A stretch of 64,000 bases of DNA. Origin: Strigops habroptila (lineage: Eukaryota; Chordata; Aves; Psittaciformes; Psittacidae). Below are positions 28,201-34,710 of this stretch, piece after piece. The stretch spans positions 62,733,725 to 62,797,724 of the forward strand of contig NC_044282.2 of assembly GCF_004027225.2 (NCBI RefSeq), given 5' to 3'. Both the position numbers and the translations under genes were made by a program. Within the stretch, counting starts at the first letter, position 1. Each line of letters starts with the position of its first letter. Below the pieces are notes generated by a model. That model had not been told where the DNA came from. It saw only the letters and a program-made list of their open reading frames with translations, and made no database searches.

Positions 28201-28990
28201 CACTGAGACTAGGGTGGTTTGAGACCTCCTCCACAATGAATATCCCCAGATTTAGACTCTGTCTGGAAAAATATACTTGTCCTTTGTCCCCTTGGTCCCA
28301 AGTTCTATGCCAGAAGAAGGATTTACAGATTATTTGTAGCTGTTCTGCCTTAAAATGTGTTGCCTATACGCTTATTCACATTGTGGGTATCCTCACAATC
28401 AAAAGCTGATCGCTGAGCAATGTTGGTGCAGACACACAGCAGCTACTGGCTTCTCATGCCATTCTTGTGTGTACTCTGGAAGTGCTTTCCCTCTTGGTTT
28501 CCCTCTGTATCAGAAGAGATATTAAAGGAAGGAAAGAAGTAGGAATTAAACTTTCTTTCTCCTGTGAGCTCTCTGAGTGCTTGTCTCCATTTGAATTCAC
28601 ACTATGAATGTGAGCAGAACCACCCAAAAAACACCACATAGCTGGAAGAGAGGATCACAGTCTTCAGAGGATCATTCTTCCAAACCTGGAGACATCATGA
28701 ATTGCCGAGGTGAGTATGTATCTCCAGAGAGGACGCCTTTAACACCGGAGCGGGGGGAAGCGCAGCGTCCAGGAGCCTCAGTTCGGAGCGGCCAGAGCCA
28801 CTGAGGGAGCCTCAAGTCCTCGACAAGACTTGCCCAGGAGCCGGCAGCTCAGCTGACGCGAGCAGCTGACTCACAGGGGGCGGCGCCAGGAGTGACGGCA
28901 GCAGCCCTCAGTGGGTAAAAACCCATCCCAGGGAGCGCGAGTGATCAGGAGTGCGGCGAACAGGGCGTGGCACGTCAGTCAGGGCGTGGC

Positions 28991-29062
28991 GCGGCACTTG
29001 GCGCGGCACTTGGCGCGGCACTTGGCGCGGCACTTGGCGCGGCACTTGGCGCGGCACTTGGC
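28991..29062 (+). repeat. Six exact copies of a 12-bp unit in the CR1 5' region
   Basis: The unit GCGGCACTTGGC is repeated six times without a mismatch, just before the ORF1 ATG. In the ORF1 frame it would read (ARHL)n, but no ATG precedes it in that frame, so it is probably 5' UTR. Confidence 0.92.
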
Positions 29063-29078: not shown

Positions 29079-30155
29079 ATGGTGAGCACTCGCCTCAGGA
29101 GCAGGGCCCGCTCTGGGAGCTCTGCCCCGGCGGTGGCCAGCGTAGGCACCCAGACAGAGCCGATGAGAGGGGAGGCTGCGGCACAGACCTCGGAGTGTAG
29201 AAAGTGCCTCGACTGGTCTCTTGAGGTGAGGGTGCACAATGAGCAGGGCTGCACTCGGTGCGCCCTGGTGGAGGTCCTCCTGCAGCAGGTGGCTGAGCTG
29301 CGGGAGGCTGTTGGAGAGCTGAAAGATGCCAGGGAAGCTGAGAGGAAGCTGGGCTGCTTGCTCCAGGCCCAAACTCTACAGGGGCTGCAAACGTCCAGCA
29401 TTGCTCACATAGGAAAGAAGGAGGGCAGCAACTCAGGAAGCTGGGAATTAGTCACGAGAAAAACTAACAAAAAAAGGAGGAAAAGGACAATTAACGACAA
29501 GGGGCTTCCTCCTAAATCTGATGTCCCCACCCAGAACTGCTTCGCAGTTCTGCAGGGGGCTAACGAGAAAGCACCCACCACACCTAATGAGCATCCTGCT
29601 GATGCACCAGTAAAGAGGATCACTACTGGTGCCTCCAGGAAAAAGAGGAGGGTCATAGTAGTAGGGGACTCTACTTTGAAAGGCACAGAGGCGCTCATCT
29701 GCCGGCCTGATCCAGTCTTGAGGGAGGTGTGTTGCCTGCCAGGGGCTCGGATCAGGGATGTTGCTGAGAGGCTGCCTGCTCTGGTAAGTCCTGCTGACTA
29801 TTACCCCCTTCTAGTGGTCCATGTGGGTGCTAGAGATATAGATAGCAGTAGCCTGGAGAACATTAAGAAGGACTACAGAGCCCTGGGAGAGGTGGTTAGG
29901 GGCTCTGGAGCTCAGATAGTTTTTTCATCGATTCTCCAGGACAAAGGGGAGGACCTTAAAAAAGCTAGGTGCATTTGGCAGGTTAATAAATGGTTAGAAT
30001 GGTGGTGCCATAGTCAGGGGTTTGGCTATTTAGAACATGGGGCTCCGTTTGGGAGGCCAGATCTACTGGAGGCTGGTGGAGCTGGTCTGACAAAGAAGGG
30101 GAAGAGCTGTTTTGGTTGGAGGCTTGCCAGGCTGGTCAAGAAGGATTTAAACTAG
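29079..30155 (+). CDS. CR1 ORF1 protein (zinc-ribbon-like, coiled coil, SGNH-esterase-like)
   Basis: ORF1 proteins of CR1 bind the element's RNA. From the first in-frame ATG this is 358 residues. Visible parts are a C-X2-C-X14-C-X2-C motif (Cys40, 43, 58, 61), a leucine/glutamate-rich coiled coil (about 62-100), a basic patch KKRRKRT (131-137) and an SGNH-hydrolase-like domain from [11 protein letters not shown] (Ser198) to the end. The frame is open back past 28911 but without ATG, so the ATG at 29079 (GCGGGATGG) is chosen. The esterase looks inactive: the usual GxND is GARD (250-253) and the usual DxxH near the end is replaced (GGAG, 333-336). The last codons T TTA AAC TAG form a candidate frameshift site. 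Confidence 0.88.
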
Positions 30156-33064
30156 ATGTGTTGGGAGAGGGGAGCATTGATCCATCCCAACACTCCCGGT
30201 CAGTTACCAGCACCTGTAATAAGTGCTTGGAGCGATGTAGAGATGTTCCAGCTGCCCCAGCCATTGAGTCGGCTGCATTTGGAGCTCGGCTAAGGTGCCT
30301 CTGTACAAACGCCTGTAGTATGGGGAACAAGCAAGAGGAATTAGAGATGTGTGCAAGGCTACGGGAATATGATGTCATTGGTATCACAGAAACATGGTGG
30401 GATGGCTCCTATGACTGGAGTGTCGGAATGGAAGGTTACAGGCTGTTTAGAAAAGACAGGCCAGGCAGACGGGGAGGGGGCGTTGCTATCTATGCCAGTG
30501 ATAGGCTAGAGAGTATGGAACTCTGTCTGGGGATGGGTGATGAGGTAACAGAGTGTTTGTGGGTCAGGATCAAAGGGAAAACAGCAATGGGGGACATTAC
30601 GGTGGGGATCTGTTACAGGCCGCCTGATCAAGAGGACTCTGTGGATGAAGCGCTCTACAGACAGATAGGAGCAGCCTCACGCTCGCAGGCCCTGGTCCTC
30701 ATGGGGGACTTCAACCATCCTGACATCTGTTGGAGGGACGGTACGGCCCAGCACAAGCAATCCAGGAGGTTCCTCGATTGTGTGGAAGACAACTTCCTCT
30801 TTCAAGCAATAGAGGAGCCGATGAGGAGAGGTGCCATGCTTGACCTCGTGCTCACCAACAGGAAGGGACTGGTTGGAAATGTGGTGCTCCAGGGCAGCCT
30901 TGGCTCTAGTGATCACGAGATGGTTGAGTTTGAGATCCTCAGGACAGTGAGAAGAGCATGCAGCAAGCTCACTGCCCTGGACTTCAACAAAGCAGACTTT
31001 GGCCTCTTCAGGAACCTCCTTAGTAAGGTTTCATGGGATATAGTCCTAGAGGGCAGGGGGGCCCAAGACTGCTGGTTGATATTCAAGTATCACCTGCTAC
31101 GTGCTCAAGAGTGTTGCATCCCGACTAGAAGAAAGTGCAGCAGGAGGGCCAGGAGACCTCCATGGATGGACAAGGAGCTGCTGAGGAAACTTAGGGGGAA
31201 AAAAGAAGCTTATAGAAGGTGGAAGCAAGGACAGGCGGCCTGGGAAGAATATAGGAGCATTGCCCGGGAAGCTAGGGACCAGGTTAGGAAAGCTAAGGCC
31301 CAGCTAGAATTAAGTTTGGCAAGGGATGTAAAAGATAACAGGAAAGGATTCTATAGATACGTAGCAAATAAAAGACAGACTAGGGACAATGTGGGCCCTC
31401 TCCGGAAGCTATTAGGAGAACTGGCTACTATGGATTTGGAGAAGGCTGAGGTTCTTAATGACTTCTTTGCCTCCATCTTCACCAGCAAATGCTCTGACCA
31501 CACCACGAAAGTCTTGGAAAGCAGATGCAGGGACTGTGAGAATGAAGACCTTAGGCCCACTGTAGGAGAGGATCAGGTTCGAGACCATCTTAAGAACCTG
31601 AATGTGCACAAGTCCATGGGACCTGATGAAATCCATCCACGGGTCCTGAAGGAGCTGGCGAATGAAGTTGCTAAACCACTGTCCATCATATTTGAAAAAT
31701 CCTGGCAGTCAGGTGAAGTTCCCGATGACTGGAAGAAGGGTAATATAACCCCCATTTTCAAGAAGGGGAAGGTGGAAGACCCGGGAAACTACAGACCAGT
31801 CAGCCTCACCCCTGTGCCTGGCAAAATGTTGGAACAGTTTCTCCTGGAAAACATGCTAAGGCACATGAAAAACAACGAGGTGGTTGGTGACAGCCAACAT
31901 GGCTTCACTAAGGGGAAATCCTGCCTGACCAATTTGGTGGCCTTCTATGATGGAGCCACAGAACTGATGGACAGGGGCAGAGCAGTTGACATCATCTACC
32001 TGGACTTGTGCAAAGCGTTTGACACTGTCCCGCATGACATCCTTGTCTCTAAATTGGAGGGACATCAATTTGATAGATGGACCACTCGGTGGATAAAAAA
32101 CTGGCTGGATGGCCGCACGCAAAGAGTTGTGGTAAATGGCTCGATGTCCAGTTGGAAACCTGTAACGAGTGGTGTCCCTCAGGGATCGGTGTTGGGACCG
32201 GTCCAGTTCAACATCTTTGTTGGTGACATGGACAGTGGGATTGAGTGCGCCCTCCGCAAGTTTGCCGATGACACCAAGCTGTGTGGTTCAGTTGATACGC
32301 TGGAGGGAAGGGATGCCATCCAGAGGGACCTTGACACGCTTGTGAGGTGGGCTGTTGCCAACCTTCTGAAGTTTAACCAAGCCAAATGTAAGGTCCTACA
32401 CCTGGGTCAGGGCAGTCCCAGGCACAGCTACAGGTTGGGCAGAGAAGAGATTCAGAGCAGCCCTGCAGAGAAGGACTTGGGGGTGTTGGTTGACGAGAAG
32501 CTTAACATGAGCCGGCAGTGTGCGCTTGCAGCCCAGAAAGCCAACCGTATCCTGGGCTGCATCAAAAGAAGCGTGACCAGCAGGTCAAAGGAGGTGATCC
32601 TGCCCCTCTACTGTGCTCTTGTGAGACCTCACTTGGAGTATTGCGTACAGTTCTGGTGTCCTCAACATAAAAAGGACACGGAGCTGTTGGAGCGAGTCCA
32701 GAGGAGGGCCACGAGGATGATAAGAGGGCTGGAGCACCTCCCGTATGAAGACAGGCTGAGAGAGTTGGGGCTGTTCAGCCTGGAGAAGAGAAGGCTGCGT
32801 GGAGACCTCATAGCAGCCTTCCAGAATCTGAAGGGGGTCTATAAGGATGCTGGGGAGGGACTCTTCGTTAGGGACTGTAGTGGTAGGACAAGGGGTAATG
32901 GCTTCAAACTTAAACAGGTGAAGTTTAGATTAGATATAAGGAAGAAGTTCTTTACAGTGAGGGTGGTGAAGCACTGGAATGGGTTGCCCAGGGAGGTTGT
33001 GGATGCTCCATCCCTGGCGGTGTTCAGGGCCAGGTTGGACAGAGCCTTGGACCACGTGGTTTAG
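30014..33064 (+). CDS. CR1 ORF2 protein (APE endonuclease and reverse transcriptase)
   Basis: It nicks target DNA and reverse-transcribes the CR1 RNA. The frame opens at 30014 and overlaps ORF1 by 142 bases in the -1 frame. Residues are counted from 30116 (982 to the stop). Endonuclease (about 58-275) residues present are Asn65 (TNA), Glu92 (TETWW), Asp198/Asn200 (GDFN) and SDH 265-267. Reverse transcriptase (about 500-770) has motif [10 protein letters not shown] (Asp630), motif B SGVPQG (685-690) and the catalytic FADD (716-719). The C-terminal part runs through [18 protein letters not shown] to DHVV. No stop or frameshift is present. The first in-frame ATG is residue 69 (30320), after endonuclease residue Asn65, so translation likely enters from ORF1. 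One odd change is GPVQFN, where an older copy here has GPVLFN. Confidence 0.92.
30146..30197 (+). promoter_or_regulatory. Candidate -1 ribosomal frameshift signal: TTTAAAC plus stem/pseudoknot
   Basis: The slippery heptamer T TTA AAC (30146-30152) lies in the ORF1 frame and touches the ORF1 stop TAG (30153-30155). After a 5-base spacer, GTGTTGGGA (30158-30166) pairs perfectly over 9 bp with TCCCAACAC (30185-30193). Loop bases GGGA (30170-30173) can pair with TCCC (30194-30197) directly after the stem, giving an H-type pseudoknot with loops of 3 and 11 bases. A -1 slip reads TTT AAA CTA GAT, which is the ORF2 frame, giving a fusion of 358 + 970 = 1328 residues. Heptamer type and spacing match known viral frameshift sites (established); activity here is inferred. 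Confidence 0.7.
30156..30293 (+). CDS. Short frame after the ORF1 stop (TAGATG), 45 codons
   Basis: An ATG follows the ORF1 TAG directly, in the ORF1 frame, and stays open for 45 codons to TAA at 30291-30293, overlapping the ORF2 N-terminus. It would be made by reinitiation, or joined to ORF1 by readthrough. It shows no recognisable domain and may be chance. Confidence 0.25.
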
Positions 33065-33816
33065 GGCAAGGTGTCCCTGCCCATGGCAGGGGGGTTGGAA
33101 CTAGATGATCTTAAGGTCCTTTCCAACCCTTACTGTTCTATGATTCTATGATCCCTCAGCTAAATTTAAAACAGAAGAGAAAAGCAGTACATCAACTTCC
33201 CCCACAAAGGAGAAACAACACCCCTGGGAGCCTGTGGAGCCTGGCTCTGGAGGCTGCCCTTCCTCTTTCTGCGCACAACGAAGGCAGACAGGAAAACTCC
33301 AGCTCCAGAAGACAGGTCCCGTAATCCAGCTGCACGAAATGACCCATCCGCTAACACGTTCCAGACTCCAAACTGCAGAAAGTTGCACCTGGTGCTTAGT
33401 GCATCACTTCCCAAGGAAAGGGAAATGAAGTTTACATCCTTTTTGTGGAAATAGAACAAAGTCATCTTATTGTTTGTTATCACATATTACAATCTTGTGT
33501 GCATGAATGAAATGCCAGACCTGCTCTCATCGCTCCTTGGTTTCAAGGATGCTGGTGCATCTTGTATGATAGGTGAGATCACCAGCTCTGAGCTTTTACA
33601 CCATCAGAAATGAACTCGCACCCAAATGTTAAAGCACATTTCATGGTCATTTCAGATCATGGAAGCACACTGAAAGTCATTCCATCGCATAGCTTGTTCT
33701 GCACTTGCGCTCAGCAAAGGCAGCTGTGATTGTCTGAAGGAGCATGTGGTTATTAAATTATATTTAGGCTATTATACAAACAGAGTGAAACTTGCCATAG
33801 AAGCACAGAAGCACAG

Positions 33817-34115
33817 ACTCATAGAATAGTTTGGCTTGTAAGGGACCTTAAAGCTCATGTAGTTCTTGGGATTGCTCTGACCCAAATGCAGGACTTTAAA
33901 CTTGGTCGTGTTGAACTTCATGAGGTTCAGACACAGCTTGGTGCCATCAGCAAACATGCTGAGGGTACACTCAATCCTACTGTCCATGTCACCAACAAAG
34001 ATGTTAAACAGCACTGGTCCCAACACCAACCCCTGAGGAACACCATTCATCACTGATCTCCACTTGGACATCAAGCCATTGACCATAACTCTTTGAATGC
34101 GACCAAACTTGTGGA
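33817..34115 (-). mobile_element. CR1 fragment, internally deleted, with broken reverse transcriptase
   Basis: The minus strand encodes a piece of the RT palm (GVPQGLVLGPVLFNIFVGD, then FADG) joined directly to the CR1 3' tail. About 800 bases found in the full-length copy are missing. The second catalytic aspartate of FADD is Gly, so the copy is dead. Confidence 0.88.
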
Positions 34116-34710
34116 GATCAGGCAAAGTCTCTCATTAGGAATCACATGGTTACAGGCAGTTCAATGACTCAGGACTCGCAAGCACCTTTTCACCTATAGC
34201 CTGTCAGAGCCCCACACTCTTTGAACAGGATCTTATACATATTCCACACATGGAGAGTTTAACGTTTGATACCAAATTTTCTTATTTGAAGGTATTTGAT
34301 GTTACATGTGATTTTGATTAAGCAGAGTGATACGGCAATGAACTGAAATCACAATGCAAGCTCAAATGATAGCTAGCAGAAAACAGACATTGCAGTATAC
34401 CACTGAGTCACAACATGAAGGTGATTCCTACTACCAGTCTCCATAATACACTCACCATCATGGCCCTTAACCATCCTTAGTCCCTGCAAATGGGCCCATT
34501 GCTCTCTTCAGAACTCTTGTTGCTTGTCATCCGGATTTTATACTCTCTGTGGGGCTGAGCCATGGATACAGTCTGCTGTTGCTGGTTTGGCTAACTCAGG
34601 GAAGCATTCAAACCCTTTTGGTTAACTGGGGGACAAACATTTACACAACCACTTGATCCGCTCAGCTGACACAGCCAGTTGATCTAAAACAAAGACTGCC
34701 CTCCAGTGCC

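Follow-up and report, generated by a model that had tools for sequence, protein, structure and literature searches.

A conserved slippery heptamer at the ORF1/ORF2 junction of a CR1 element in Strigops habroptila points to a programmed −1 ribosomal frameshift

The 64 000-nucleotide stretch of the Strigops habroptila genome analysed here (the window) raises the question of how a long interspersed nuclear element (LINE) translates its second open reading frame (ORF) when that frame lies one base back from the first. We take the element, which lies on the plus strand, to belong to the clade named CR1, and features of that clade are present, namely homologues of CR1 ORF1 and an ORF2 with the Pfam domains Exo_endo_phos and RVT_1. 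ORF1 (29079–30155) encodes 358 amino acids, ends in K-D-L-N followed by TAG, and is 93 % identical over its full length to an S. habroptila protein (P0001). The window ORF1 had no match in Pfam, and PF13472 (the SGNH esterase domain) was found in many of its homologues. The ORF2 frame, −1 relative to ORF1, was listed as open from 30014 to 33064, and from the junction onwards (30146–33064) it covers a linker, an endonuclease and a reverse transcriptase (PF03372, PF14529 and PF00078). Both frames are intact. At the junction itself, the heptamer T TTA AAC (30146–30152), read in the zero frame of ORF1, is directly abutted by the ORF1 stop codon TAG (30153–30155).

Our study suggests that this junction is likely to be a programmed −1 ribosomal frameshift site that yields an ORF1–ORF2 fusion; the slip itself, its rate and its stimulator we infer from sequence. 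Under this reading, the majority of ribosomes would halt at TAG and release the ORF1 protein, whilst a minority would slip one base back, their P- and A-site tRNAs moving from TTA and AAC to re-pair with TTT and AAA. Reading in the −1 frame would then cross a short, variable linker and go on to the endonuclease and reverse transcriptase, so that the product is a fusion in the manner of Gag and Gag-Pol. The common signal would comprise the heptamer, the abutting stop and a G-rich tract about 10 bases further on, as found in three of the families described below (F1–F3). A preliminary description of this DNA had proposed such a slip, with a stem and pseudoknot as its stimulator, and its letters and coordinates (the heptamer, TAG, a 9 bp stem, a 5-base spacer and GGGA/TCCC) are all correct in the sequence. 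Its fusion of 1328 residues likewise follows from 358 plus 970 residues in two uninterrupted frames. The slip site and the fusion are supported because the heptamer is kept across families, its codons are under synonymous constraint, the −1 frame is open and the window's own family (F1) has no early AUG.

Conservation was assessed in the window's own assembly (1.149 Gb, 89 contigs). A 601-base DNA query spanning the junction, for which 40 of 2116 candidates were scored, gave 30 loci (L001–L030, L001 being the window copy), and an endonuclease-protein query, with 150 of 5659 scored, gave a further 30 (L031–L060), of which 23 belong to a second, older family (F2). The ORF2 frame was exactly 981 residues long in 37 of these 150 scored matches (a hand count of the table), and F1 therefore has many intact ORF2 copies. 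From an ORF1-protein query (150 of 3087 scored), 18 loci were fetched, namely the 7 top matches, all non-F1, and 11 hand-picked F1 copies, and TTTAAAC stood at the ORF1 end in all 18. A second ORF1 query (P0255; 121 of 3512 scored, 7 fetched) added four loci of a fifth family (F5; L086–L089), one relative of F1 (L090) and two F1 copies. The 92 loci, minus 7 longer refetches (L079–L085, equal to L061–L067), left 85 distinct loci, window copy included. The first 30 were selected by junction-spanning DNA, whereas those from the protein queries (L031–L092) were not selected for codons. As F1 copies are 97–100 % identical to the window over the 601 bases, conservation within F1 alone was not counted as evidence. 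An endonuclease query of turtle type returned matches of 63–65 % identity which look like the window family only, to judge by that identity, the lengths of their frames and the places they have in common with the first endonuclease query. Searches for CR1 DNA outside the sampled genome, in genome and viral contigs (with a single protein and with an alignment), phages and plasmids, gained nothing. One contig (C25; 37.4 Mb, ~3 % of the assembly) carried 13 of the 30 loci L031–L060 and 5 of the 7 top ORF1-query matches, an enrichment that might be as expected of a sex-limited or poorly recombining chromosome.

The junction aligned without an insertion or deletion at 77 of the 85 loci, the other eight not being aligned, and the exact heptamer was present in 68 of these 77. 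It was found in 41/43 F1 loci, in L090 (1/1), and in 20/23 F2, 2/2 F3, 2/4 F4-like and 2/4 F5 loci, the F4 assignment being loose for some of the old loci. The five families thus share the heptamer and differ in the sequence downstream of it, and the conservation of the heptamer that the preliminary description had called for is borne out. The heptamer was followed by TAG in 42/43 F1, 20/23 F2, 1/2 F3 and 2/4 F4-like loci and by TGA in 2/4 F5 loci, the stop being lost in the remainder; among the F5 copies, L088 has TGA and L086 has CGA in place of TAG. The codons are also constrained. Where a residue is common to four families, a single codon was used in only 8 of 52 upstream columns versus all three of the A-L-N columns (GCT TTA AAC; Fisher p 0.006). 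Other F1 representatives gave 9/49 versus 3/3 (p 0.010) and 9/51 versus 2/2 (p 0.040), and upstream columns with one codon numbered 5/24 when a frameshifted F1 copy represented the family. TTA is the rarest leucine codon in the window element (8/139). With relatives taken into account, the heptamer and its frame go well beyond what chance would give.

A wider view came from proteins of other vertebrates. We listed 171 ORF1 homologues, comprising 98 from a first search and 73 new ones among the best 120 of 190 from a second. A profile of the tail that omitted the last four residues, and that favours close relatives because it was made from proteins ending in L-N, was matched to its end by 134 of them; 124 end in L-N, three have L-N and then run on, and seven differ. 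The L-N-ending proteins come from birds, turtles, lizards, a snake, an alligator and poison frogs. Immediately ahead of L-N stood alanine in 108, threonine in 10, serine and glutamate in two each, and cysteine and tyrosine in one each, so that a codon ending in T is compatible in 122/124, with glutamate alone excluding it. On the ORF2 side, a screen of the gene models P0001–P0218 for F-K-L-[DEGK] at most 135 residues before the endonuclease motif returned 27, one of them false (P0206, in the reverse transcriptase region). F-K-L was accordingly found, by pattern, at the junction in 26 of 34 linker-bearing bird and turtle models (Mycteria 21, Grus 2, and one each from Theristicus, Limosa and Anas acuta), the screen being blind to models with an altered site and no linker motif. 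Since ORF1 ends in A-L-N-stop and the frame one base back reads F-K-L, TTTAAA would be fixed at the DNA level in these elements; this deduction requires that the ORF1 and ORF2 models come from the same elements, as we infer from their matching letters. Public names for CR1 proteins can mislead (P0005, P0104 and others, P0279 and P0285), these misnomers including a Klebsiella hydrolase, a crane 'mitochondrial enolase superfamily member 1' and a Komodo dragon 'Replicase polyprotein 1a'.

Reading in the −1 frame from the heptamer meets no stop and stays in register as far as the conserved endonuclease asparagine, which is reached at codon 55 in F1, at codon 40 in F2 and at codon 98 in the F3 copy L082, where the position is now a serine. 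The upstream extension of this frame is short, with 9 codons ahead of the heptamer in 24 of the 27 readable F1 loci (of 30, L011, L017 and L026 being left out) and 2 codons in each of the two F3 copies. In one F5 copy (L086) it meets a stop at codon 51, right before the endonuclease.

Several observations weigh against a conserved frameshift. Only three codons enter the synonymous test, and the locus counts are not independent, as the families share ancestry and some loci are duplicates (L031/L032 and L044/L045). Stops interrupt the linker in 3 of the 27 F1 loci (L004, L008 and L023), at codon 76 of an F3 copy (L079) and at codon 8 of an F4 copy (L083), in the last apparently after a short deletion; we took all of these as decay. 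Two ORF1 homologues (P0223 and P0230) end in R-E-L-N, which is incompatible with TTTAAAC at that place, and F-K-L is absent from 8 of the 34 linker-bearing models. Among these eight, four start downstream (P0100–P0102 and the turtle model P0180), and the different letters ahead of the linker in the others (P0128, P0139, P0144 and P0217) were taken as exon joins or starts. An in-frame AUG precedes the endonuclease in F2 (codon 23 in L084 and L081), in F3 (codon 5) and in L090 (codon 23), and ORF2 models of turtle, duck and goose begin at AUGs upstream of the endonuclease. Finally, no Watson–Crick stem of more than 4 bp was seen at a spacer of 4–9 bases in eight F2–F5 loci (the longest having 3 or 4 bp), and minimum free energies (MFE) of folding lay near those of shuffled sequence, with z-scores of −1.2 to −1.8 for the window copy and −0.1 to −0.7 for two F1 relatives.

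These last results bear upon a special case of the frameshift reading, rather than one that excludes it, in which the slip is driven by the stem or an H-type pseudoknot of the window copy, in the manner of coronaviruses. In that copy, the proposed stem 1 pairs GTGTTGGGA (30158–30166) with TCCCAACAC (30185–30193), and the proposed stem 2 pairs GGGA in the loop (30170–30173) with TCCC (30194–30197), where relatives usually have TCCT; both are perfect and at a good spacer. Among 42 F1-type junctions (18 distinct), chosen with a pattern that extends into the first bases of the stem, stem 1 had eight Watson–Crick pairs and one G–U in 26, and 22 combined this with a stem 2 of three pairs and one G–U. 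With G–U counted, stem 1 had nine pairs in 36/42 and stem 2 four pairs in 39/42, figures of little weight among near-identical copies. A 7 bp core is kept in L090. However, all 9 + 4 pairs were Watson–Crick in the window copy only (1/42), and stem 2 had four such pairs in 4/42; base 30166 is A in the window copy and L077 and G in the other 40. The longest Watson–Crick stem at a 4–9-base spacer was 8 bp in F1 (L002) and 7 bp in L090, and with G–U allowed, stems of nine pairs arose in L090 and in L088 of F5, the latter only with many G–U pairs. A scan of both strands of the window at the same spacer found perfect stems of at least 9 bp at 382 of 127 870 start positions, at least 8 bp at 1297, and at least 9 bp plus a 4 bp pseudoknot partner at 128. 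The MFE z-scores of F2–F4 ranged from −1.5 to +1.5 (at most three loci per family; F5 was not included), giving an overall range of −1.8 to +1.5 across F1–F4. The stem is therefore restricted to F1 and the related L090, with its perfect form in the window copy alone; downstream structure is only weakly beyond chance, and the stem would at best assist the slip within its own family.

We weighed a pseudoknot common to CR1 as a whole and rejected it, as the F2–F5 representatives lack stem 1. Of the coronavirus-like pseudoknot in the preliminary description, the pairing in the window copy thus stands and its generality does not: the stem did not extend to other copies beyond F1 and L090, and folding of the junction was not unusual. 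We regard a slip driven by this structure as somewhat unlikely. The feature that F1, F2 and F3 do have in common, about 10 bases past the heptamer, is a tract of purines rich in G (30163–30174 in the window, read as G-E-G in the −1 frame). A hairpin also lies some 30 bases past the junction in F2, and in L088, GGAC...GTCC around G runs past the TGA might form a short hairpin.

A different account would have ORF2 start separately, by re-initiation after ORF1 at an AUG or independently of AUG, with the heptamer a by-product of shared descent. The in-frame AUGs between heptamer and endonuclease may permit re-initiation in F2, F3 and L090, and it is at such AUGs that the models from turtle, duck and goose begin. 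In 26 of the 27 readable F1 loci, no AUG occurs in the −1 frame until codon 59, four codons past the asparagine of 'T-N'; L021 has none in the stretch. In the window, this ATG (30320–30322) follows the predicted first strand of the endonuclease (RCLCTN, 30293–30310), whose last codon (30308–30310) is the conserved asparagine. A structure model of the endonuclease, built from a 20-row alignment (mean predicted local distance difference test score 79.9, predicted template modelling score 0.81), places the first strand at residues 2–7, ending at the asparagine, and the methionine at residue 11. Residues 1–217 of the model align to residues 8–238 of the human L1 endonuclease and 1–218 to residues 62–318 of APE1; a search of the PDB with a single protein gave no match, and a search with an alignment matched L1 endonucleases. 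With a gap-free alignment of the strand, the window asparagine would correspond to L1 residue 14, and we take N14 of L1 and N68 of APE1 to be active-site residues. A start at the first in-frame AUG of F1 would thus be predicted to remove the first strand and the asparagine, and entry further upstream is needed in this family. In the LINE Zorro3, mutation of a conserved endonuclease asparagine (N17A) reduced retrotransposition to <5 % (PMC1965478).

Published work lends a separate start some precedent, as ORF2 of L1 and SART1 depends upon ORF1 translation, perhaps by re-initiation (PMC2881922), AUG-independent initiation has been considered for human L1 (PMC5009743), and Zorro3 requires an ORF2 AUG (PMC1965478). 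In the window, however, the AUG that touches the stop (30156) is in the ORF1 frame and out of frame for ORF2; it does not provide stop–start coupling of the SART1 type and would instead capture re-initiating ribosomes. A separate start also leaves unexplained both the fixed TTA AAC codons and the lack of stops in the −1 frame from the heptamer onwards in F1, F2 and L082, and we consider it unlikely. Translation of ORF2 from a spliced RNA, with an acceptor just 5′ of the junction in the −1 frame, is highly improbable, since the bird gene models that enter ORF2 by exons beginning upstream of F-K-L are predictions whose 5′ parts vary and are often unrelated, and the −1 frame opens so few codons before the heptamer in F1 and F3.

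Returning to the frameshift, we put forward tentatively, and with rather less confidence than we hold in the site itself, that one −1 site (GCT TTA AAC stop) may have been kept since before the split of frogs and birds, that endonuclease and reverse transcriptase may be made only as an ORF1 fusion across this vertebrate LINE lineage, and that the heptamer, abutting stop and G-rich tract may suffice without a conserved pseudoknot. If true, a single 7-base signal would set the ratio of ORF1 to ORF2 and a covalent ORF1–ORF2 fusion would be predicted. This would also guide researchers towards a working CR1 assay, as ORF2 constructs begun at the first AUG would miss the start of the endonuclease in F1.

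Around the ORFs, the window holds a GC-rich unit of 12 bases, ggcgcggcactt, repeated six times head to tail just 5′ of the ORF1 start (28988–29059, by eye), and octamer-like 3′ repeats of the CR1 element near 33136–33152. Close downstream, on the minus strand (33772–34131), a truncated second CR1-like fragment covers part of a reverse transcriptase (by eye).

The preliminary description had not been aware of frameshifting at the CR1 ORF1/ORF2 junction, and no account of it was found in the open-licence literature searched; the founding papers (Haas 1997 and Kajikawa 1997) lie outside that literature and may hold one. U UUA AAC directs −1 frameshifting in coronavirus ORF1a/1b and at some retroviral pro-pol junctions. 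CR1 resembles coronavirus ORF1a/1b in the heptamer, its register and the −1 position of the downstream frame, and differs in having no conserved pseudoknot, in a heptamer that touches the stop and in its LINE host. In Rous sarcoma virus gag-pol, the slippery site is directly followed by the gag stop and a large stimulator is known. CR1 shares this abutting stop and the logic of Gag to Gag-Pol, whereas the heptamer is another one and the CR1 stimulator is putative. Family F1 is probably CR1-psi, a match made by description: according to a 2022 paper (PMC8854603), CR1-psi is a parrot-specific subfamily of CR1-E with, on average, 1860 copies >2 kb, and F1 is likewise abundant in young, long copies in a parrot-like genome. 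SART1 and human L1 are, like CR1, bicistronic LINEs that reach ORF2 by unusual translation; there (PMC2881922) this is stop–start coupling, as the title of a cited work has it, or re-initiation, in contrast to the slippery heptamer of CR1. Frameshifting is itself described for telomeric retrotransposons without long terminal repeats (non-LTR), such as HeT-A, in which Gag needs it (PMC5009743). Taken together, −1 frameshifting is well known and frameshifting in another non-LTR element has been described, and what is new within the literature searched is the CR1 junction, where the slip would join ORF1 to the endonuclease and reverse transcriptase, whereas the frameshifting of HeT-A concerns Gag itself.

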